From Candidatus Dojkabacteria bacterium (GTDB taxonomy: Bacteria; Patescibacteriota; Dojkabacteria; GCA-002793355), in NCBI GenBank assembly GCA_015489595.1, contig WFZK01000036.1:1-42826 (forward strand): a stretch of 42,826 nucleotides of DNA, in the 5' to 3' direction. The notes beneath the pieces are model-generated. The model had not been told where the DNA came from. It saw only the letters and a list, made by a program, of their open reading frames with translations, and searched no databases. Below, one piece after another: positions 10,318-30,081 of this stretch (positions are counted from its first letter, which is position 1; each line of letters begins with the position of its first letter). The position numbers were made by a program, and so were the translations under genes.

Positions 10318-10394
10318 GAGAGGGTTTTAAGCAAAGACTGATTCTGTCTTGTACAGCTCAATATGATTCCTGGCTCGGCATGGTATCATATGAT

Positions 10395-12122
10395 ATGGAG
10401 CGTAGACGTAGGCTATTCCGTAAGGTAATGGCCGTTGGGGTTCTTTGGTTAATTGCCGTCGCTGTGATTGTTTTAGCTTATTTAAGGTCAAAAAAAGTTG
10501 TAATTAGAAATTCGGCCCATATTCAGTATGCTTCGTCTCTGGATTTTAAGACATACAAAGGTAAAGCCCCAATTTATCCCTTGGATGGAGCATGTTATAA
10601 GTTTTTTAAATCTGAACCGCTATTGATCCCCGATTTGCACTCTGGGCCTAATACTTATGTTTATCTTAGACGTTTAAAACTCCATGTTGACGTGGCACCG
10701 TTTGCTAATCATAAGCTATACGGGAAAATACATCAGGTAGATATAAACATTATGGGGTCTCCCCTATGGAAATACACATATCCTAACTGGCTTTCAATCA
10801 CGGGCAGACCGTGGAAGACTTATGAGTTTAAATGGAATCCTCCTTTGCTACTTTTAAAGGGGCCTGGAAACTTACAAGCAGTTGATGCCATCTTTTGTGA
10901 TCCCTGGGATAAGGCGGATGGCAAAAAGGACATGTTTCACGAACCAGCTCAGCTTGAATGGGAGATCGAGTATGCCACATCAGAACAGCCGCTTAAGAGT
11001 TTCATGGAATGGTTTAGGTATAAAGGTACTTCTTGGGGCTGGCCCACTCCTAACGGAAAGCTTAAGCTAGGAACAATTTTAGATAATACCAGCGAGGGGA
11101 AGGGGTACAGTGTCAATACAGCTATCTACGGTTATTATTTTTATCCAACCTTGTATCAGGATGTTTGGCTAAAAATAGGTGAAAAGACGATTGTAGGTGG
11201 TAAGGGAATAAATACTGCTTCTAACCCTGACATTACTGATAATCCTGTGATTTACTTTAATCCTTTAGTTGTGGGGCGAGGAGACATCTATATTCAGTGG
11301 GGTCCAAATTTAGGCCCTGGTTCTCGGACTTTTGCAATGGTATTTGGAGTTCGCGGTGTAGAGAAGGTAACTCCGACGTCTGTTACCCCTACGTCAGCTC
11401 CAACCCCTACACCTACATTGGCGTCTCCTCCGGTGACTCCAAGTCATACTCAGACTCCTACGCCTACGAAGGCTCCTAACTCTGAGCAGGGTTTACCACT
11501 TAAGGTTCCATGTAGTATAGGGCAGCCAGTTATACTCCATACGGGGGCAGATTATGCTTCGGATTTAACGGATGTGGTTCCGCCTCCTAGTGTTCCTGAG
11601 GGTTTTGTGGCTCAAAGTCAGACGGTGTATAAAGGAAGTTGCAGGGAGGCAAAGATATATTCGTACATTCTAGATAAAGAGATAGAGCTTGTTCCTGAGA
11701 CAGGTTTAAAGAAGGTTAGTTTCAGAATTAAGTTAAGCGAAGCCTTAAGGAATGATAATCCTCTTATTAAGTTAAGTATAGGTAATAACACATTCTATAC
11801 ATTTAGCGACCAGGAAGGTACTGCCTATTTGTATGTGCCTGCTAGCTACTTTGAGAAGAAACCAGTAGAGGTAACTATTAAACCGTATAATTATCTCGCT
11901 AAGATTTTAGTTTTAGAGAGTGGGCTTTCTGAGCTAGGGGAACGGAATCTTAATTTTATATGGGGTGATTTAGATAATAAGGGGGACAGTGTCTCTCCGC
12001 AGGATTACGCAATTTTCCTTAAGTATTATTTAGGACGTTTTTTAGCTGCCGACGCTGATCTTAGCGGAAAGGTTTGGGTGAAAGATTATGCGATTATGAT
12101 TAATAATCTTGGGAAGAAGTAG
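10395..12122 (+). CDS. Membrane-anchored surface protein with dockerin-like C-terminus
   Basis: 575 residues. A basic end (MERRRRLFRK) and one membrane helix (VMAVGVLWLIAVAVIVLAYL) are followed by a large beta-rich extracellular region of about 290 residues (Trp/Tyr/Gly-rich, unrecognised), a Pro/Thr/Ser linker (TPTPTLASPPVTPSH area), a second domain of about 150 residues, and a dockerin-type I module at the end. The dockerin shows the duplicated calcium-loop/helix: GDLDNKGDSVSPQDYAIFL and DADLSGKVWVKDYAIMINNL. A cohesin-like partner is encoded at 23437. The start at 10395 is preferred over 10380 because TATCAT (10384-10389) ends 5 nt before it. The stop is followed at once by a repeat hairpin. 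Confidence 0.8.
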   Translation: MERRRRLFRKVMAVGVLWLIAVAVIVLAYLRSKKVVIRNSAHIQYASSLDFKTYKGKAPIYPLDGACYKFFKSEPLLIPDLHSGPNTYVYLRRLKLHVDVAPFANHKLYGKIHQVDINIMGSPLWKYTYPNWLSITGRPWKTYEFKWNPPLLLLKGPGNLQAVDAIFCDPWDKADGKKDMFHEPAQLEWEIEYATSEQPLKSFMEWFRYKGTSWGWPTPNGKLKLGTILDNTSEGKGYSVNTAIYGYYFYPTLYQDVWLKIGEKTIVGGKGINTASNPDITDNPVIYFNPLVVGRGDIYIQWGPNLGPGSRTFAMVFGVRGVEKVTPTSVTPTSAPTPTPTLASPPVTPSHTQTPTPTKAPNSEQGLPLKVPCSIGQPVILHTGADYASDLTDVVPPPSVPEGFVAQSQTVYKGSCREAKIYSYILDKEIELVPETGLKKVSFRIKLSEALRNDNPLIKLSIGNNTFYTFSDQEGTAYLYVPASYFEKKPVEVTIKPYNYLAKILVLESGLSELGERNLNFIWGDLDNKGDSVSPQDYAIFLKYYLGRFLAADADLSGKVWVKDYAIMINNLGKK

Positions 12123-16101: not shown

Positions 16102-18423
16102 CTACATTTTTCTCCACTCTTCCTCCCACGGGCTGGGTGGTAATTTTTCTGGATGAACGAGTAAGCGGACAATACTGCTTACACATAAGAAGCAATTAAT
16201 TATTTTTGATGGTTCTATATAATCCTGTTTCACATTTGTGACTATTTCGTACAAGATAAAGATTAGCTCGTTAAATAGTCTCTTTTCAGCTTTTTCCTTG
16301 GGCAGATGCCCCGTGGAGGATTTTACCTGAAAGTCAGCTATCTCATAGAGTCTTTCTAAAACATTTTTTCCGTCTTTGGTTCGGGTAGCTTGTACCGTGT
16401 TTAACATCTCTTCCAGTACCTTTTTCCACTGCTCAGGGGTATAGCTATTCTTTTGCTGAACGGATTCTACTACTCTTTCTCTAAGTTCTTTGTTTGCTAG
16501 CAAGGGTTGGAGCTCTTCAATAAACATGTTTAATCTGTCCCATAGGCTTGCTAATTTTTCGGGAGTGTTAAGAAGCTGTTCTATCTCTTTTTCATCTTCT
16601 AGCCACTCCCTGAAGCGCAGATAATAAAATGGATCAACTATGTGGTGATCATCTGGGTTCCTAGGGTCTGAGCTAAGTACGAAGATTTTATCTGGAGGAT
16701 AGAAACGCAGGAGGTCATATATAACTGAAAATATCCCATCCCATAAGATCGATCCGGTAGAGAGTAGTAGAGGCCAATATTTTTTGATGTTTTCTGGGTT
16801 GCTTGTTATAAGGTTGATCAAGTGTTTAAACCGCTTAGCCACTTTATCTCCTTGCATTTCGGATATAATTAGTAAAATTTCTCGATCTTGAAGAATCTTT
16901 AGAGCTTCTATAAAATCAGACATTCCTTCACTATTACCCCACGACAGCGTAGATACCACTTTAGCAGCGTTGTTAAGCGTGGCCACCTTATCTGGGGAGA
17001 GCTTAGCAAGCCATTCCTGTATTTTCCTTACAGGATAATCATAGTAAGTCTCTCCAGCCACTTCAACTTTATATTTGGAGGACTCCCAAGGTGGTGCAGT
17101 TGTCAGCCATATGGCGAGTTTATCGACCCACACTCCTACTTCCCACATCTCTTGTGTTAAGGCTTCTATTAAATTTTGTTTGGTATTTTGGTTTTGTAAT
17201 TGTGTGACTCTGTTAATAAAATCGATAGGACTATAGTGGTATAAGAGGTAACCGAGGGTGTATAAAGATAGTTCATCTCCCTTCGAGGCGATAGCCTTGT
17301 CTTTTTTGAGAAGATAGTCTTTTACGTCCTCTCTGAGCTTTCTTAGGATAGGGTGGCTTGAAGGTCCATCTATCATTCTTAGCCGAGCGAGGAATAAGAG
17401 GAGACCAAACGCCATGGAGCTTGCGGCATCCGTGCGTTCTATAGTAAGGGGGACAGGGGTCAAGATTAGAGGAATCTCCTCATTTGGCGTTTCTCTTAAG
17501 GGTAGGATCATAATCCGAGCCACTTGTGGTGGGATTCCTCTCCTCAAAGGTACAGACATACATGGTTCTGAGTTTTGGGAGCAGGTAACTTCTTGGGAAT
17601 ATTTAGGAGGAAAGACAGCTGTTGGTCCGTCTTCATGTGTTGCGACGTGTGTTCCATGTAGTCCAGAGTACTGTCCGCGGCACAGATTCTCTATAAAGCA
17701 TAGAGCGTAAAGGACCTCTTTTGGTATGCCACTTACTTGAGAGAGTTCATTGATTAGAGCTTCCATTTCTTCGACAGTAGGGTCCAGCATAATTTCTTCT
17801 GGGTGGTAGTAGAGAGTAATATATCTACGTATTAGCCAGTTATATAATTCTTCACCTTTTTCTCCTAATATTTCTCTAATCTCTTTAGGTTGTGCTATAC
17901 GGTAGTTGTTGGGAAGAAATTCATTAACCAGGTGAAAATTGATCTTTTCAAGAGATAGTGTCCAGGGAGTAGATTCCGTTAGCCTAGGTGGGGGAGTAAT
18001 GTAAGTGTCGCCCCCAAAAAGATCATTTATTAAGAGTTGTCTTGTTTCATCTCTAATCCTTTCGAAGGTGGATTCCATTTTTGGAGCGACTTTAAGCCAT
18101 CTTGAAAAGCGTTCTAATCGTCTGAGGCGTTTTTCGACTGATTGCTGAACATATTTTATTACCCACAGATTCGAAAGGATTGCCCCTCGGATGGGATACC
18201 AATCCTCCGGAAGGGGGGATTTAGTTTCCTTATTCCGAGTTGGAGATTTATGAGCAGTAGGTAGCTCTGGCCATGGCATGAGGAATTGAGAAGCTACTAA
18301 TCCAGTAGAGAATAAAAACTGTCTGCGGGTCATTTCCCTTTGGAGTAGAGGGTCGATAGGATTTGGGTGAGGTTCATTAGTGGGGTTTCCCTTACCTTGG
18401 CGGGTTTCTCTCACGGTCTCCAT
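16102..18423 (-). CDS. Large Tat-exported protein, unknown (possible lytic-transglycosylase-like region)
   Basis: 773 residues. MTRRQFLFSTGLVASQFLMPW (31-51) is a twin-arginine signal (TRRQFL plus hydrophobic stretch), preceded by 30 polar residues; a start at Met31 is possible. The mature part is mostly helical and charged. Around residues 230-400 the order VSGIPKEVLYALCFIEN, DAASSMAFG and LYTLGYLLYHYSP loosely recalls SLT-type transglycosylases (helix with catalytic Glu, AxxxMQ-type loop, YNxG-type helix), but key residues do not match well, so no enzyme activity is assigned. Two close cysteines (TCSQNSEPC) may form a disulfide. TATTTT lies 7 nt before the first ATG. Confidence 0.6.
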   Translation of the reverse strand: METVRETRQGKGNPTNEPHPNPIDPLLQREMTRRQFLFSTGLVASQFLMPWPELPTAHKSPTRNKETKSPLPEDWYPIRGAILSNLWVIKYVQQSVEKRLRRLERFSRWLKVAPKMESTFERIRDETRQLLINDLFGGDTYITPPPRLTESTPWTLSLEKINFHLVNEFLPNNYRIAQPKEIREILGEKGEELYNWLIRRYITLYYHPEEIMLDPTVEEMEALINELSQVSGIPKEVLYALCFIENLCRGQYSGLHGTHVATHEDGPTAVFPPKYSQEVTCSQNSEPCMSVPLRRGIPPQVARIMILPLRETPNEEIPLILTPVPLTIERTDAASSMAFGLLLFLARLRMIDGPSSHPILRKLREDVKDYLLKKDKAIASKGDELSLYTLGYLLYHYSPIDFINRVTQLQNQNTKQNLIEALTQEMWEVGVWVDKLAIWLTTAPPWESSKYKVEVAGETYYDYPVRKIQEWLAKLSPDKVATLNNAAKVVSTLSWGNSEGMSDFIEALKILQDREILLIISEMQGDKVAKRFKHLINLITSNPENIKKYWPLLLSTGSILWDGIFSVIYDLLRFYPPDKIFVLSSDPRNPDDHHIVDPFYYLRFREWLEDEKEIEQLLNTPEKLASLWDRLNMFIEELQPLLANKELRERVVESVQQKNSYTPEQWKKVLEEMLNTVQATRTKDGKNVLERLYEIADFQVKSSTGHLPKEKAEKRLFNELIFILYEIVTNVKQDYIEPSKIINCFLCVSSIVRLLVHPEKLPPSPWEEEWRKM

Positions 18424-19540: not shown

Positions 19541-22500
19541 ATGACTGCACGGGATAAAGCAGAGCTTTCTACTACATTTATCAAGGATGTATTCAACCAA
19601 GTAGAGGAGCCTATTATTAAGTTTTGGAAGCAGAACAAGATTTTTGAAAAATCTGTAGAGTCTAGGCCAGAAGATAATAGGTTCGTGTTTTATGACGGGC
19701 CTCCGTTTGTAACTGGTACTCCGCATTATGGTAGTCTGCTCCCTAGCGTACTTAAAGACATAATACCCAGGTTTCAGACCATGCTTGGAAAGAGAGTAGA
19801 GAGGCGCTGGGGCTGGGACTGCCATGGTATTCCCATAGAGGAGAAAGTAGAGAGAAAATTAGGCACAAAAAACAGAAGAGACATAGAGGAAAAGATAGGC
19901 CTTGAGCGTTTTATAAAGGAGTGTTTCAACTACGTACAAGAAACCTCTGCTGCCTGGCCCTGGTATATAGAACACGTTGGCCGCTGGGTTGATATGGAGA
20001 ATCCTTACCGAACTATGGACATGTCGTACATGGAGACTGTTATGTGGGTATTTAAACAGATGTATGATAAGGGGCTGGTATACTACGGCAAAAGGATCTC
20101 TCTTTATTGCCCCAGATGCGGAACTCCGCTTTCTAGGTTTGAGATACAGATGGATAATTCGTATAGGGATCTAGAGGATCCTTCAATAATTGTAAAATTC
20201 CCGCTGAACTATTCTAAAACAGGCAACGGTGTTGGAGCTGTTATTGAGAACGAGAAAGGTCAGATCTTAATGGCAGTAAGAAATGAGAAGGGTAGGAAAA
20301 AACTTTGGGGGATAGTAGGCGGCAAGATGGATCCAGAGGATAAAGATCTTTACGAGACGGTAAAGCGTGAGGTAAAAGAAGAGACCGGAGCAGAGGTGAC
20401 GGATATAGAGTATTATGGGTTTCACGTTGACATCTTCGAGGGTAGGCTGTTTAAAACCCACCACTTTAAGGCAAGGATAAAAGGAGAGGTTAGGCGTACT
20501 GCTCCATCTGAGTTAAAAGAGTTTGTGTGGGTAGATAAGGATAAGATTCCGTGGGATAAGATTCACATCCCTACACGCAATTGTTTAAAAAATGTGCTAG
20601 ATGGCAAGCCTGTAACTACTAAGCCTGATACTAAGCTTGTGCCTGTGTATCTGCTTGTTTGGACCACAACCCCATGGACTTTGCCTGAGAATGCAGCCGT
20701 CGCTGTTGATAAAGATAGCTTATATGTAACAGTTAAAAAAGGCGATGAGCTTTTAGTTTTAGCAAAAGACAGACTCGAAGAGGTTTTGGGAGAAGAAGAC
20801 TACAAAATTTACGATGAGTACAAGGGCGAGGAATTAGTAGGCCTTTCGTATAAACCGCTTTTTGATTACTTTGCTTCACAGGCCAAAGAGGCGGATTTCC
20901 ATGTATACGCTGCTGATTTTGTAAGTATGGATGAAGGTACAGGGCTTGTGCATATGGCTCCAGCTTATGGAGAGGATGATTTTAATTTGGGCAAGGAATT
21001 AGGGCTTAGTTTGTTTGAAGCAATAGATGATCTGGGCCTGTTTACGGATCCGGTTTCAGATTATAAGGGAATGTACTTTAAAGAAGCGGATCCTAAAATA
21101 ATTGACAATTTGAAAAAAAGAGGCCTTTTGTTTAAAGAGGGCAAGATAGTGCACAGTTATCCAGTTTGTTATCGCTGTGGAACACCACTTCTTTACAAGG
21201 CTCAAGAGGCTTGGTATGTGAACATTCAGAAGGTTAAGAAAGACATGCTCAAAAACAATGAGAATATCAACTGGGTACCACCCCACTTTAAGCATGGTCT
21301 TTTCAAACACGTAATAGAGACTGCACCAGATTGGTGTATCTCGAGAACTCGCTTTTGGGCTACCCCTCTGCCTATATGGCAGTGCGACAAGTGCGGTTAT
21401 ACAGAGGTTTTAGGCTCAATCAAGGAGATTGAAGAGAGATCGGGCAAAAAGGTAACTGACCTTCACAGACCTTATATTGATGAACACACCTGGAGCTGTC
21501 CTAAGTGTAAAAAGGGTACATTAAAGAGGGTTCCTGAAGTAGTTGATGTTTGGCTAGAGTCAGGCTCTATGCCTTATGCTCAGTATCACTACCCGTTTGA
21601 GAATAAAGAGCAATTCGAGAAGAACTTTCCAGGTGATTTCATAGTTGAGTACGTGGCTCAGGTTAGGGCCTGGTTTAATATGCTTCATCGTGTGGCTACT
21701 ATCGTTTCGAATTCTAATGCCTTTAAGAATGTAATAGTTACTGGGGTTATAAAGGGTACGGATGGAAGAAAAATGAGTAAATCCTACGGGAATTATCCAG
21801 ATCCCAAGGCTACACTAGAGAAGTACGGAGGCGAGGCTTTTAGGCTGTACGTTAGTGGAAGTCCTTTGGTAGTAGGCGAAGATATGAATATCTCCGAAGA
21901 AGGCATAGCTGACCAGGTAAAAGAGATAATCCTTCCGTATTTGAATATTTATCGATACTTTGCCATGTATGCTAATCAGTTTGGATTTAAGCCTGATGAG
22001 AATTTTGAGCCTACGAGTTTACTTGATCGTTGGGTTCTTGCGCGAGTTGGTAGATCAGTAAGAAGTATAAAGAAGTGGCTTTCTAAGTACTATATTAACA
22101 AAGCTACCGCTGAGATAAAGCCTCTTATCGAGGATGTTTCTACTTGGTATATCAGAAGGTCAAGAGATAGATTCGTAGCAGGGGATCGCGATGCTCTAAA
22201 CACATTGTACAAGGTCATTAAACTGATGTCTCTTGCCTTTGCTCCGATAATGCCGTTTAGTACAGAGTATGTTTATTTACAGATTCGTAAGCTAGAGAAA
22301 GATCCATGTGAATCCATTCATCTTTGTTACTGGCCTACTGTCAAGAAATTAAGTAGCGATGATAAGGCGATGCTCGAAAAGATGGAGATTGTGAGAAAGC
22401 TGGCTTCTCTTGCCCACAACATAAGGGTATCGGAGCGACTTCCTGTAAAACAGCCTTTAAGCAAGCTCGTGGTAAGTGTAGACGGAGTAAAACTTGAGCC

Positions 22501-24381: not shown

Positions 24382-24744
24382 TTAGAACCAGTGAATGTTG
24401 TTACTATTTTTTAGTTGATTTCTATCTATCCATTCGATTTCTAGAATTTTACCGGGCTCTCTAATGCGTGGTGTACCGGATATGATGCGGGCTTCGTAGA
24501 AGATGAATACCCAGAATTCGTCCCCGTATTGTTCCTCGGAGATTCCCGCCAATCGGAGGATTTCGATTTTGATGCCTAGCTCTTCTTCAACTTCTCGAAT
24601 AATGGACTCTCTTAAAGTCTCTCCCTCTTCTAGTTTACCTCCGGGGGGTACCCACACTCCACCTTTTTTCTCTTTATTAAGGCGGACCGCTAATATCTTT
24701 CCTTTCGAGTCTTTGATGATGGCGGAGCCTACTACCTTGTTCAT
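24382..24744 (-). CDS. Nudix hydrolase
   Basis: 120 residues, a single Nudix domain. The box GGKLEEGETLRESIIREVEE (35-54) continuing LGI fits the GX5EX7REUXEEXGU consensus exactly; VVGSAIIKDSKGKILAVRL is the first strand pair. The substrate cannot be read from sequence; members hydrolyse nucleoside diphosphates linked to another moiety. It is a stand-alone relative of the domain inserted in IleRS 1.4 kb away, but sequence similarity between the two is only at family level. TATAAT lies 9 nt before the ATG. Confidence 0.85.
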   Translation of the reverse strand: MNKVVGSAIIKDSKGKILAVRLNKEKKGGVWVPPGGKLEEGETLRESIIREVEEELGIKIEILRLAGISEEQYGDEFWVFIFYEARIISGTPRIREPGKILEIEWIDRNQLKNSNNIHWF

Positions 24745-24929: not shown

Positions 24930-26744
24930 ATGCTCTTTTCAGAACTTGCCCAGGCTTTCGATCAGTTAGAACAGATAAGCTCCAGAATAGCCCTAAGAGA
25001 TACCCTTGCAGCTTTGTATAAAAAATTAAGCCCAAAAGAGGCTGCTATCACTTCCTATTTTATTGTAGGTAGGCTAGCTCCAAAGTTTATTAATGCAGAG
25101 TTTAATATCTCTAAAAAGACCATAGAAAAGATAATCCAGGAACTTTTCTCTATTGACCGTAGAGAGGTTAGAGAGTTGCTGCTTAAATACAACGATTACG
25201 GCGGAATCTTCGCCAATCTTTCTAAAAACACCAACAATACATCGCTTCAAATTGAAGACCTCTACGAGCGCTTATGGGATATAGCTCTTATCTCAGGAGC
25301 AGGCTCTCAGACCCAGAAGTTTGAGAAGCTTTACAGACTGTTAGCTTCTGCTTCTGCTGCAGAAGGTAAATACATAATTAGGATTATTCTAGGAAGAACT
25401 AGATTAGGTGTAAGCGAAAGAACAATAATAGAATCCTTAGCCTATACAAGAGATCCGAAAGATAAGAAAGCAATTGAGAAGTCGCTTGGATATACCAGTG
25501 ATGTGGGTTATGTGGCTTTCCTTTATGTGTCTGCAGGATTAGAGGGACTTAAGAAAGCCGTTTTTACTCCTGGGGTGCCGATTGCGCCCAAGCTAGTAGA
25601 AAGAGAAGTAAGTATAGAGAAGATCTTTAAGAGGATCCCTAATCCGTACGAGGAGCCTAAATATGATGGATTAAGGTGCCAGGCTCACATTTTTAAGGCA
25701 AACGATTCGCAGAATCTGAGTGATAGAGTTTGGGCCAAATTTGTGCAAGATCATACCTCCTCTGCAGAAGGTTCCCAGCAAGGCTTAGTGGTGAAACTTT
25801 TCTCAAGGAATCTAGAAGATATGACTGCAATGTTTCCAGAGATAAAAGAGGGGTATCTAGCAGTAGGTAAAGAGCTGTTTAAAAAATATCATGAGGCCCG
25901 AGCTTTTGTTTTTGATGGTGAGATAGTGGGTTACAACGAAAACACAGGTGAATTTTTGCCATTCCAGGAGACAATGACTCGAAAGCGTAAATACAATGTA
26001 GAAGAAGCAGCTGCCCAAACTCCTGTCAAAATTTTTACATTCGATGTATTGTTTTTTATAGATTCTCCTTTGCTTGATTTTAAGCTAGAACAAAGAAAAG
26101 AAAAGCTTTCAGAGATAAAAGGGGTTCACGAAGATATATTACCTACACCGTTGCACAAACCTAAAGACGCTAAAGAGGCGGAGAAATTGTTCTTAGAGTA
26201 CGTGTCAGAAGGACTGGAGGGAGTTATATTTAAAGATCCCCAGACTCTGTATACACCAGGGCTTAGGAATTTCGATTGGATTAAATTTAAGCGTGCTATG
26301 AAGCATGAGCTAGCAGACACCATCGATGTTGTAGTTGTAGGGTATTACTATGGTACTGGTAGACTAGCAAAACTAGGCATAGGAGCACTCTTGGGAGCAG
26401 TTTATGATAAAGAAAATGACAGATATGTGACAATCACCAAAATAGGCACAGGGATTACAGAAGATCAATGGAAGATGCTGAAAAATCTAGCTGATCAGTA
26501 CAAAATAGACCGTCAGCTGCCTAATGTAGAGATTCCAAAAGAATTAAGGCCTGATGTGTTTTTAGAACCTGGTCTGGTAATAGAGATAGAGGCAGATGAG
26601 ATTACAAAGAGTCCGGTACATACCGCAGGATACGCTTTAAGATTCCCGAGGTTTAAGAGGGTAAGAGATAAGGCTCCAACCGATTCTACCTCTTTGCAGG
26701 AGATTTTAGAGATGGTTAAAGAGAAGACTTCTGCAGGTAACTAA
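24930..26744 (+). CDS. lig: ATP-dependent DNA ligase, archaeal/LigI type
   Basis: Seals nicks in duplex DNA using ATP. 604 residues in the three-part layout of archaeal and eukaryotic replicative ligases: an N-terminal helical DNA-binding domain (1-220), the adenylation domain with active-site EPKYDGLRCQ (Lys244 forms the AMP adduct), FDGEIVGY, FTFDVLFF and EGVIFK further on, and an OB-fold domain with DVVVVGYYYGTGRLAKLG and the end motif. NAD-dependent LigA is the normal bacterial replicative ligase; whether this organism also has it cannot be seen here. TATAAT ends 5 nt before the ATG. Confidence 0.93.
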   Translation: MLFSELAQAFDQLEQISSRIALRDTLAALYKKLSPKEAAITSYFIVGRLAPKFINAEFNISKKTIEKIIQELFSIDRREVRELLLKYNDYGGIFANLSKNTNNTSLQIEDLYERLWDIALISGAGSQTQKFEKLYRLLASASAAEGKYIIRIILGRTRLGVSERTIIESLAYTRDPKDKKAIEKSLGYTSDVGYVAFLYVSAGLEGLKKAVFTPGVPIAPKLVEREVSIEKIFKRIPNPYEEPKYDGLRCQAHIFKANDSQNLSDRVWAKFVQDHTSSAEGSQQGLVVKLFSRNLEDMTAMFPEIKEGYLAVGKELFKKYHEARAFVFDGEIVGYNENTGEFLPFQETMTRKRKYNVEEAAAQTPVKIFTFDVLFFIDSPLLDFKLEQRKEKLSEIKGVHEDILPTPLHKPKDAKEAEKLFLEYVSEGLEGVIFKDPQTLYTPGLRNFDWIKFKRAMKHELADTIDVVVVGYYYGTGRLAKLGIGALLGAVYDKENDRYVTITKIGTGITEDQWKMLKNLADQYKIDRQLPNVEIPKELRPDVFLEPGLVIEIEADEITKSPVHTAGYALRFPRFKRVRDKAPTDSTSLQEILEMVKEKTSAGN

Positions 26745-28470: not shown

Positions 28471-30081
28471 ATGTTGTTGCCAGTAAGTAGCGTAAAACAA
28501 CCGGGTCAGATATATAGACAGAGTAATTTACGAAGAATTTTTAAGGTACCTTTGGTCGTACGATGGAGTCATCTGAAGCGAATTCTACCTTCTGATGTGG
28601 ACGTGGGCGTAGTCAAAAAGGCATATGACTTTGCGAAGTTTCTGCACCGTGGTCAGAAGCGCTACTCTGGAGAAGATTTCATTCATCATCCGCTAGCAGT
28701 GGCATATTTAGTGACTAAATTAGGGCTTGATCAGAACGCTATTGTAGCGGCTCTGCTACATGATGTCTTAGAGGATAACACAGTTGGAGTAACAAAGGAT
28801 ACCCTTAAGCGTTATTTTGGGAGCACAGTAACCTTCTTAGTATGTGGATTAACAAACTTTAAAGGAATAACTGCTAGGTTTAGCGGAAATCAGGATTCCA
28901 TTCCGGATCTTCGTAAACTCCTTCTGGCATCAGCCTCTGATGTGAGGATTGTGATCTTAAGACTCGCTGATAAGGTGCATAATGCATGGACTGCATTTTC
29001 TCTTCCCGTTGAGAAGCAGATTAGATTAGCTAAAAGAGCTTTGACTATTTATGCTCCTATTGCACACTTTATAGGCCTTTCTGCGTTTAGAAGAGAGCTG
29101 GAAGAAGCTGCTTTTTATATTCTTTACCCTGAAACTTTTGATTGGCTCCAGGCGCGAATGAGTTTTGTTTACGACGTAAATCTTGACTCAGTGATTGAGG
29201 ATCTTAAAAAGACAGTTGAGGATTTGGGGGAATTTAAAATTGTGGGCAGACGTAAGTCGTTGTGGAGTACTTATCAGAAGATATTAAGATACCTTAAGGA
29301 AGAGAAGGGGGAGGAAGGGTTTCTTAATATTATGCAGAAACCGTTGAGTCAGAGGCTTTACCATTTAGATTTAAGCTTTCAGAAGATCAGAGATATTATT
29401 GGAGTGATGATACTAACCAAGACGGTTGATGAGGTCTATGCTGTTGTTAGGCGGCTAAAGGGAGCCTACGGGCATAGACCTGAATACTACGATGACTATA
29501 TTAAAAACCCTAAGCCTTCAGGTTATAGAAGTATACATATGGTTATCCCTATGCATACACGTTCAAAAGGGAGAGTACGTCAGATCGAAGTAGAGGTACA
29601 GGTTAAGACTGAACTTATGCACGAGTACAATGAATTTGGTCCAGCTTCACATTTAGCTTATAAGTGGGGTTCTTTGAGCTCGGGCATAAAAGAGGATTAT
29701 TCTTGGGTTAAAGATCTTGTGAGATGGACAAAAGATAAAAAAAGGTACAAACTTCAGATCTTTAAGGATTATGTATTTGTGCTTACTCCTGAGGGTGAAG
29801 TTGTTAAACTCCCTGCGGGAGCGTCTCCGGTGGATATGTTGTTTATGATAGATAAAACCAGTCTTTCTAAAATGCAAGGAGTTTATATCAACGGGAAAAA
29901 ACGGGAGCTTTCCGCCAAGTTAAAAACAGGTGATGTGGTTTCATTTTTACTTGACCCGTTTGGGGTTTTTATTTCGGGAGATTTGCTAAAAGCAGCTCGT
30001 TTGCCACACACTCGGGAGTATTTGAAGAGGCTTTTAGAGGTACCTATTGCTACGGGAAGGATCTCTAAGAGGGACGTCTAA
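28471..30081 (+). CDS. rsh: RelA/SpoT-type (p)ppGpp synthetase/hydrolase
   Basis: 536 residues. The HD hydrolase domain (about 45-190) keeps its metal ligands: FLHRGQKRY (His59), FIHHPLAVA, LLHDVLED (His97-Asp98, Glu101-Asp102). The synthetase domain (about 235-385) has GRRKSLWSTYQKI, IRDIIGVMIL, KPSGYRSIHM and the late VEVQVKTELMHEYNEFGPASH. A TGS domain (about 415-490, YVFVLTPEGEVVKLPAGASPVD) closes the protein. The ACT/zinc-finger end of long Rel proteins is missing, so this is a short bifunctional form. It sets (p)ppGpp levels in starvation. Translation follows the ATPase gene by 4 nt with no Shine-Dalgarno sequence. Confidence 0.9.
   Translation: MLLPVSSVKQPGQIYRQSNLRRIFKVPLVVRWSHLKRILPSDVDVGVVKKAYDFAKFLHRGQKRYSGEDFIHHPLAVAYLVTKLGLDQNAIVAALLHDVLEDNTVGVTKDTLKRYFGSTVTFLVCGLTNFKGITARFSGNQDSIPDLRKLLLASASDVRIVILRLADKVHNAWTAFSLPVEKQIRLAKRALTIYAPIAHFIGLSAFRRELEEAAFYILYPETFDWLQARMSFVYDVNLDSVIEDLKKTVEDLGEFKIVGRRKSLWSTYQKILRYLKEEKGEEGFLNIMQKPLSQRLYHLDLSFQKIRDIIGVMILTKTVDEVYAVVRRLKGAYGHRPEYYDDYIKNPKPSGYRSIHMVIPMHTRSKGRVRQIEVEVQVKTELMHEYNEFGPASHLAYKWGSLSSGIKEDYSWVKDLVRWTKDKKRYKLQIFKDYVFVLTPEGEVVKLPAGASPVDMLFMIDKTSLSKMQGVYINGKKRELSAKLKTGDVVSFLLDPFGVFISGDLLKAARLPHTREYLKRLLEVPIATGRISKRDV

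Follow-up and report, generated by a model that had tools for sequence, protein, structure and literature searches.

A Nudix hydrolase domain within CP1 of an isoleucyl-tRNA synthetase of Candidatus Dojkabacteria, and other enzyme domains nested in related synthetases

Results and Discussion

An IleRS gene carrying an extra domain

The window, a stretch of 42,826 nucleotides from a Candidatus Dojkabacteria genome, contains an isoleucyl-tRNA synthetase (IleRS) gene that forms a single unbroken frame (Table 1). Its product matched the TIGR00392 ileS equivalog model with 831.5 bits (cut-off, 621.4), the match being split in two around an insert. The Pfam layout was tRNA-synt_1 (aa 25-783), Anticodon_1 and DUF5915, with NUDIX nested within tRNA-synt_1. 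The AlphaFold2 model of the full protein, made from a 16-sequence alignment, had a mean pLDDT of 87.1 and a pTM of 0.74, and its best structural matches were Priestia megaterium IleRS2 and yeast IleRS. The protein shares the overall architecture of these Type-2 IleRSs (8c8v, 8wnd), with a synthetic site, CP1 and an anticodon region, but their CP1 hairpin loop lacks a Nudix domain.

Table 1. Features of the IleRS gene in the window (aa, residue of the IleRS).
Feature	Position	Strand	Basis
IleRS, type-2-like, with nested Nudix, 1133 aa	19541..22942	+	TIGR00392 and AlphaFold2 model; ORF translation
HIGH-equivalent (HYGS), aa 62-65	19724..19735	+	sequence
Nudix insert, aa 221-367, first beta-hairpin loop of CP1	20201..20641	+	alignment with insert-free relatives; AlphaFold2
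PF00293 NUDIX match, aa 228-336	20222..20548	+	hmmscan, E 2e-18
Nudix box GGKMDPEDKDLYETVKREVKEETG, aa 260-283; putative metal-binding R-E-x-x-E-E, aa 276-281	20318..20389	+	alignment of six carriers
CP1 Thr-rich editing motif WTTTPWTLP, aa 374-382, one strand past the insert	20660..20686	+	alignment
CP1 Asp 480 (GEDDF)	20978..20980	+	invariant in 16 IleRSs
KMSKS, synthetic site, aa 744-748	21770..21784	+	sequence; conserved in the IleRS alignment

KMSKS and the CP1 editing residues of the host enzyme were retained. At the HIGH position, where changes in other IleRSs affect ATP binding and the response to mupirocin, relatives of the HYGS-bearing window protein have HFGS, HWGS, HFGH or HYGH. 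In the Thr-rich editing motif, W374-T377, P378, W379 and T380 were invariant in 16 IleRSs with and without the insert. D480 lies where the editing aspartate is expected, and we take it to have the role known for IleRS. Judged from these residues, the host should still charge and proofread.

The insertion point is the loop that joins strand VKF(P) to strand YxLAWTTTPWTLP; in the window, strand VKFP flanks the insert upstream and strand YLLVWTTTPWTLP downstream. This loop has 5-10 amino acids in insert-free relatives, such as VKDEKNT or TGQDKT among the short loops of genomes G002, G003 and G006, versus about 148 in the window and 147-154 in carriers generally. PF00293 scored 67.1 bits in the full protein and 71.7 bits in the insert alone, against a gathering cut-off of 21.1. 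The metal-ligand motif reads REVKEE in the window. The Nudix box, GX5EX7REUXEEXG, has its canonical spacing in the carrier G085. In the window protein and those closely related to it the spacing ahead of RE is longer by one or two residues, by one in the window itself.

The insert by itself was also predicted to fold (AlphaFold2 pLDDT 84.0, pTM 0.81). In the full-protein model, the elements at aa 229-354 come in the order of a Nudix fold and residues 270-282 form the box helix, and the model together with Foldseek placed the insert in the alpha/beta/alpha Nudix fold. The best 50 Foldseek matches of the insert model in the PDB were Nudix enzymes throughout. The top match was ADP-ribose pyrophosphatase MutT of Rickettsia felis (4kyx; E 8.7e-10, TM 0.76), followed by NUDT15, Escherichia coli Orf135 (2rrk, a CTP pyrophosphohydrolase), MutT1 and NudC; a profile search of PDB sequences agreed that ADP-ribose/NTP-type Nudix enzymes are nearest. 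These MutT/ADP-ribose-type enzymes resemble the insert in fold (TM about 0.7-0.76) and in the Nudix box, but they are free-standing, and at about 20-28% identity their substrates cannot be transferred to it.

An earlier note on this DNA, made from the letters alone, had proposed a full Nudix fold with its box residues inside CP1 of IleRS. The profile match, the aligned loop and the predicted fold bear this out. The extent it gave, 20207-20644 (aa 223-368), was correct to within a few residues, and its placing of REVKEETG at aa 276-283 was right. It had named three findings that would count against its reading: confinement to one assembly, a structure prediction lacking a Nudix fold, and loss of metal binding. 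The first two did not apply, as the insert occurs in six genomes and its model is a Nudix fold; as to the third, the putative metal-ligand residues are conserved.

Distribution and history of the insert

When the insert with short flanks was used as a query, carriers were found in five of the eight genomes of the order (G000, which is the window's own genome, G001, G004, G005 and G007) and in G085, from another family of the class. The six carriers represent six genera and two families, and in each the insert lies within an open frame of 1116-1163 amino acids. In the other five, the domain occupies this loop too, at 52-66% identity. Among 380 genomes across the phylum, the same search found a Nudix domain in IleRS solely in the family already known; the two remaining matches were free-standing Nudix genes. 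Viral contigs scanned with the insert gave no match. An artefact of assembly or frame has a negligible probability and was rejected, since the same loop is occupied, at the identities above, in six independent assemblies, including the single-contig G001 and G004.

GGK and RExxEE were invariant in all six IleRS carriers, as were D(I/V/L)FEGRLF, downstream, and (I/L)PW..(I/M/L)HIPT. Identity in the insert compared with neighbouring CP1 was, for example, 65% versus 75% for G000/G005 and 72% versus 71% for G005/G007. Where present, the insert is conserved about as well as adjacent CP1, and it seems to be kept as an enzyme.

A tree of 49 IleRSs from the class was built with the inserts removed. 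With + for presence and - for absence of the insert, the family splits into ((G000+,G005+),(G007+,G006-)) and (G001+,(G004+,(G002-,G003-))), with supports of 96-100; G085+ pairs with G028- in a different clade. On the simplest history, the domain was gained once, in the ancestor of the family, was apparently lost cleanly at least twice, and reached G085 separately. The patchy distribution on a well-supported host tree, with short-loop relatives of carriers, indicates that the Nudix domain is dispensable for IleRS. The 0.6-Mb genome of G006 (91% complete) gave no Nudix match anywhere; its congener G007 has three Nudix matches, one of them within IleRS. Tandem Nudix proteins of 334-354 amino acids, with two matches per frame, occur in G002, G003 and G004.

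Other enzymes nested in Ile/Val/LeuRS

For the remaining long synthetases in the class, unedited translations were scanned for domains. Two further IleRSs had a nested domain: His_Phos_1 in G010 (2.5e-16) and, in G009, a domain matching the NE1496 protein (2fbl/3typ; about 7e-12, phmmer), which we take to be CYTH-type like that protein. The long IleRSs of G106, G358, G088, G295 and G108 had, by eye, short or repetitive expansions with no recognisable enzyme domain.

In ValRS, ASCH was found in G000 and G014, Ham1 in G005, and His_Phos_1 in G010 and G015 (about 1e-42). ValRSs of G016 and G017 had a weak pyrophosphatase-like match, over the cut-off as a segment and just under it in the full protein. 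The site of the ASCH, Ham1 and pyrophosphatase-like domains is the loop directly ahead of TTRPET, the counterpart of the Nudix site in IleRS. The window genome's own ValRS (L087, on contig 24) is one of these, with ASCH in the matching CP1 hairpin loop. By eye, the CP1 inserts of the G026 and G018 ValRSs (L096 and L097) look like degenerate forms of the pyrophosphatase-like insert of G016 and G017.

LeuRSs of the class had GNAT in G023, Nudix in G009 and G024, a nucleotidyltransferase in G024, Ham1 in G017, and a serine (alpha/beta) hydrolase in G010, G016, G017, G020 and G021. Many LeuRS open frames of 930-1800 amino acids were seen in a sample of 80 genomes from outside the class. Ten of these LeuRSs were scanned: six had Nudix, one of them together with a HAD domain, one had an alpha/beta hydrolase and one a nucleotidyltransferase. 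LeuRS loci with nested domains are L111, L113, L114, L119, L120 and L121 in the class and L130, L132, L136, L139-L142 and L144 in the phylum. Some LeuRSs bear two or three nested domains, such as that of G017 (1342 aa), and by eye the 1795-aa LeuRS of G088 (L128) has HAD-like, two Ham1-like and nucleotidyltransferase-like nested domains. The LeuRSs of G019 and G018 (L117 and L118) have in common a CP1-region insert of 119 aa that matched no Pfam family.

AlaRS and UvrA, taken as controls from the same class, had no domain-sized inserts; nesting is therefore not a general property of these proteomes. Of the nested superfamilies, about ten in all, six have phosphate or nucleotide substrates. We read the IleRS Nudix domain as one case of a habit of the lineage, the loops of Ile/Val/LeuRS being used as landing sites for small enzymes.

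The Nudix domains of IleRS and LeuRS fell into separate groups, and that of IleRS was closer to free-standing Nudix proteins (G338, G191) than to that of LeuRS. A common origin of the two was accordingly rejected in favour of independent acquisition by LeuRS. The LeuRS cases (G094, G138, G154, G218, G308, G322, G009 and G024) resemble the window protein in having Nudix in the CP1 region with a conserved catalytic box but differ in the synthetase, the CP1 loop and the Nudix group. In these eight domains, only 9 of 132 gapless columns were invariant, nearly all of them within the Nudix box, the mark of selection for catalysis.

What the nested Nudix domain might do

We favour, at a probability of roughly 0.6, the reading that an active, self-contained Nudix enzyme is carried as a passenger in a working IleRS. 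The first CP1 hairpin loop would hold a complete and probably active hydrolase acting on a small nucleotide of its own, most likely a (d)NTP or a nucleoside-diphosphate derivative of the MutT/NudG/ADP-ribose type. Being carried by a host that is essential and presumably abundant may bring it co-expression, abundance and stability, and neither isoleucylation nor editing would require it. The Ile/Val/LeuRS loops of the lineage would act as landing sites for such small domains. Two observations stand against this reading. The share of nested superfamilies with phosphate or nucleotide substrates might point to coupling with the host. A common function could also lie behind the finding that nested domains concentrate in editing synthetases while AlaRS and UvrA have none.

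It is because of that share that we keep a coupled function open. On this alternative, which we consider possible with a distinctly lower probability, the loops of editing synthetases would be selected docking sites for mostly phosphate- or nucleotide-cleaving enzymes that are functionally coupled to the host. They might, for example, clear products or inhibitors at the synthetase, or regulate charging through nucleotide chemistry, and the set would include the IleRS Nudix. A narrower form, in which the Nudix domain touches the pocket of CP1 or the acceptor end of the tRNA and, in answer to a nucleotide ligand, modulates editing or aminoacylation, seems unlikely. The end of the insert does lie one beta-strand ahead of the TTTPW editing motif, and nested domains cluster in the three class I synthetases with editing, AlaRS having none. 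However, G002, G003 and G006 are cleanly without the domain and have an ordinary short loop, aminoacyl-AMP and aminoacyl-ester bonds are not of the Nudix type, and the nested families are too diverse for a single coupling. The second proofreading step suggested in the earlier note gained no support, given the domain-free close relatives and the unrelated chemistry nested in the same synthetases.

The same note had also suggested that the insert destroys Ap4A or other adenylylated by-products released by the synthetic site of its own protein. Synthetases produce Ap4A, some Nudix enzymes cleave it, and phosphate/nucleotide hydrolases are repeatedly nested in Ile/Val/LeuRS. Yet PRK00714 (RppH/Ap4A type) models scored 17.6-19.9 bits against cut-offs of 116-139, with no other Ap4A model among the matches listed, and the nearest structures were of ADP-ribose, NTP and NADH types. 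Closely related IleRSs do without the domain, and GNAT, alpha/beta hydrolase and ASCH do not fit such a role as nested domains. We regard this specific clearance as unsupported and unlikely. Loss of catalysis, leaving a structural spacer that binds tRNA or protein, is improbable: some Nudix domains elsewhere are non-catalytic readers, but here the catalytic residues were invariant in 6/6 nested Nudix domains of IleRS and 8/8 of LeuRS, against drift at most other positions. Built-in detoxification, in which nested enzymes inactivate nucleotide-like or other inhibitors aimed at the host synthetase, would suit the repertoire that just the Ile/Val/Leu group shows, namely GNAT, nucleotidyltransferase, Nudix, phosphatases and hydrolases, and natural inhibitors of LeuRS and IleRS exist. 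No link to an inhibitor, a producer or resistance was found, and we consider this explanation very improbable.

Precedents and implications

Synthetase editing domains are thought to stem from insertion of hydrolases into the catalytic core, and ProRS INS and CP1 itself are precedents for hydrolases inserted in synthetases. Those domains are ancient and act on the synthetase's own mischarged tRNA, whereas the IleRS Nudix is patchy among close relatives and gives no sign of such a role. A survey of ECOD domains noted synthetases as preferred hosts for domain insertion (PMC13114784). In the open-licence literature searched, we found no description of Nudix in IleRS or LeuRS or of repeated nesting in Ile/Val/LeuRS, which is weak evidence of absence. 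To that extent the statement of the earlier note that no described synthetase has this arrangement held. However, LeuRS with Nudix is frequent in the phylum, and NCBIfam records an isoleucine--tRNA ligase containing an N-acetyltransferase domain (NF040702, ileS_w_GNAT) as an exception to the normal family. That entry is like the window protein in being an IleRS with an added enzyme domain, but the enzyme is GNAT rather than Nudix, and the window IleRS scored 296 bits, below the cut-off of 1999.

The pattern of nesting across the phylum is a more interesting result than the IleRS Nudix domain alone. Insertions have occurred repeatedly in this lineage, related hosts show the states before and after, and at least two losses were apparently clean, so the process is open to study with living intermediates. 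The nested domains also form a natural catalogue of positions at which an essential synthetase can take up a whole enzyme and not be destroyed by it. Some caution is needed, as annotation by domains will, in these small genomes, give a wrong name to either the synthetase or the enzyme nested in it.

The neighbourhood of the gene

In the window, 1.4 kb downstream of IleRS, lies a free-standing Nudix gene (24382-24744, minus strand). It was rejected as the origin of the insert, to which it has 29% identity; it is nearer to a free Nudix of G005 (76%). Two large ORFs, 10380-12122 (plus strand, 580 aa) and 16102-18423 (minus strand, 773 aa), had no Pfam match. An ATP-dependent DNA ligase of the archaeal/eukaryotic three-domain type (PF04675, PF01068, PF04679) is encoded at 24930-26744, and a RelA/SpoT-type protein (HD, RelA_SpoT, TGS) lies near IleRS at 28471-30081.
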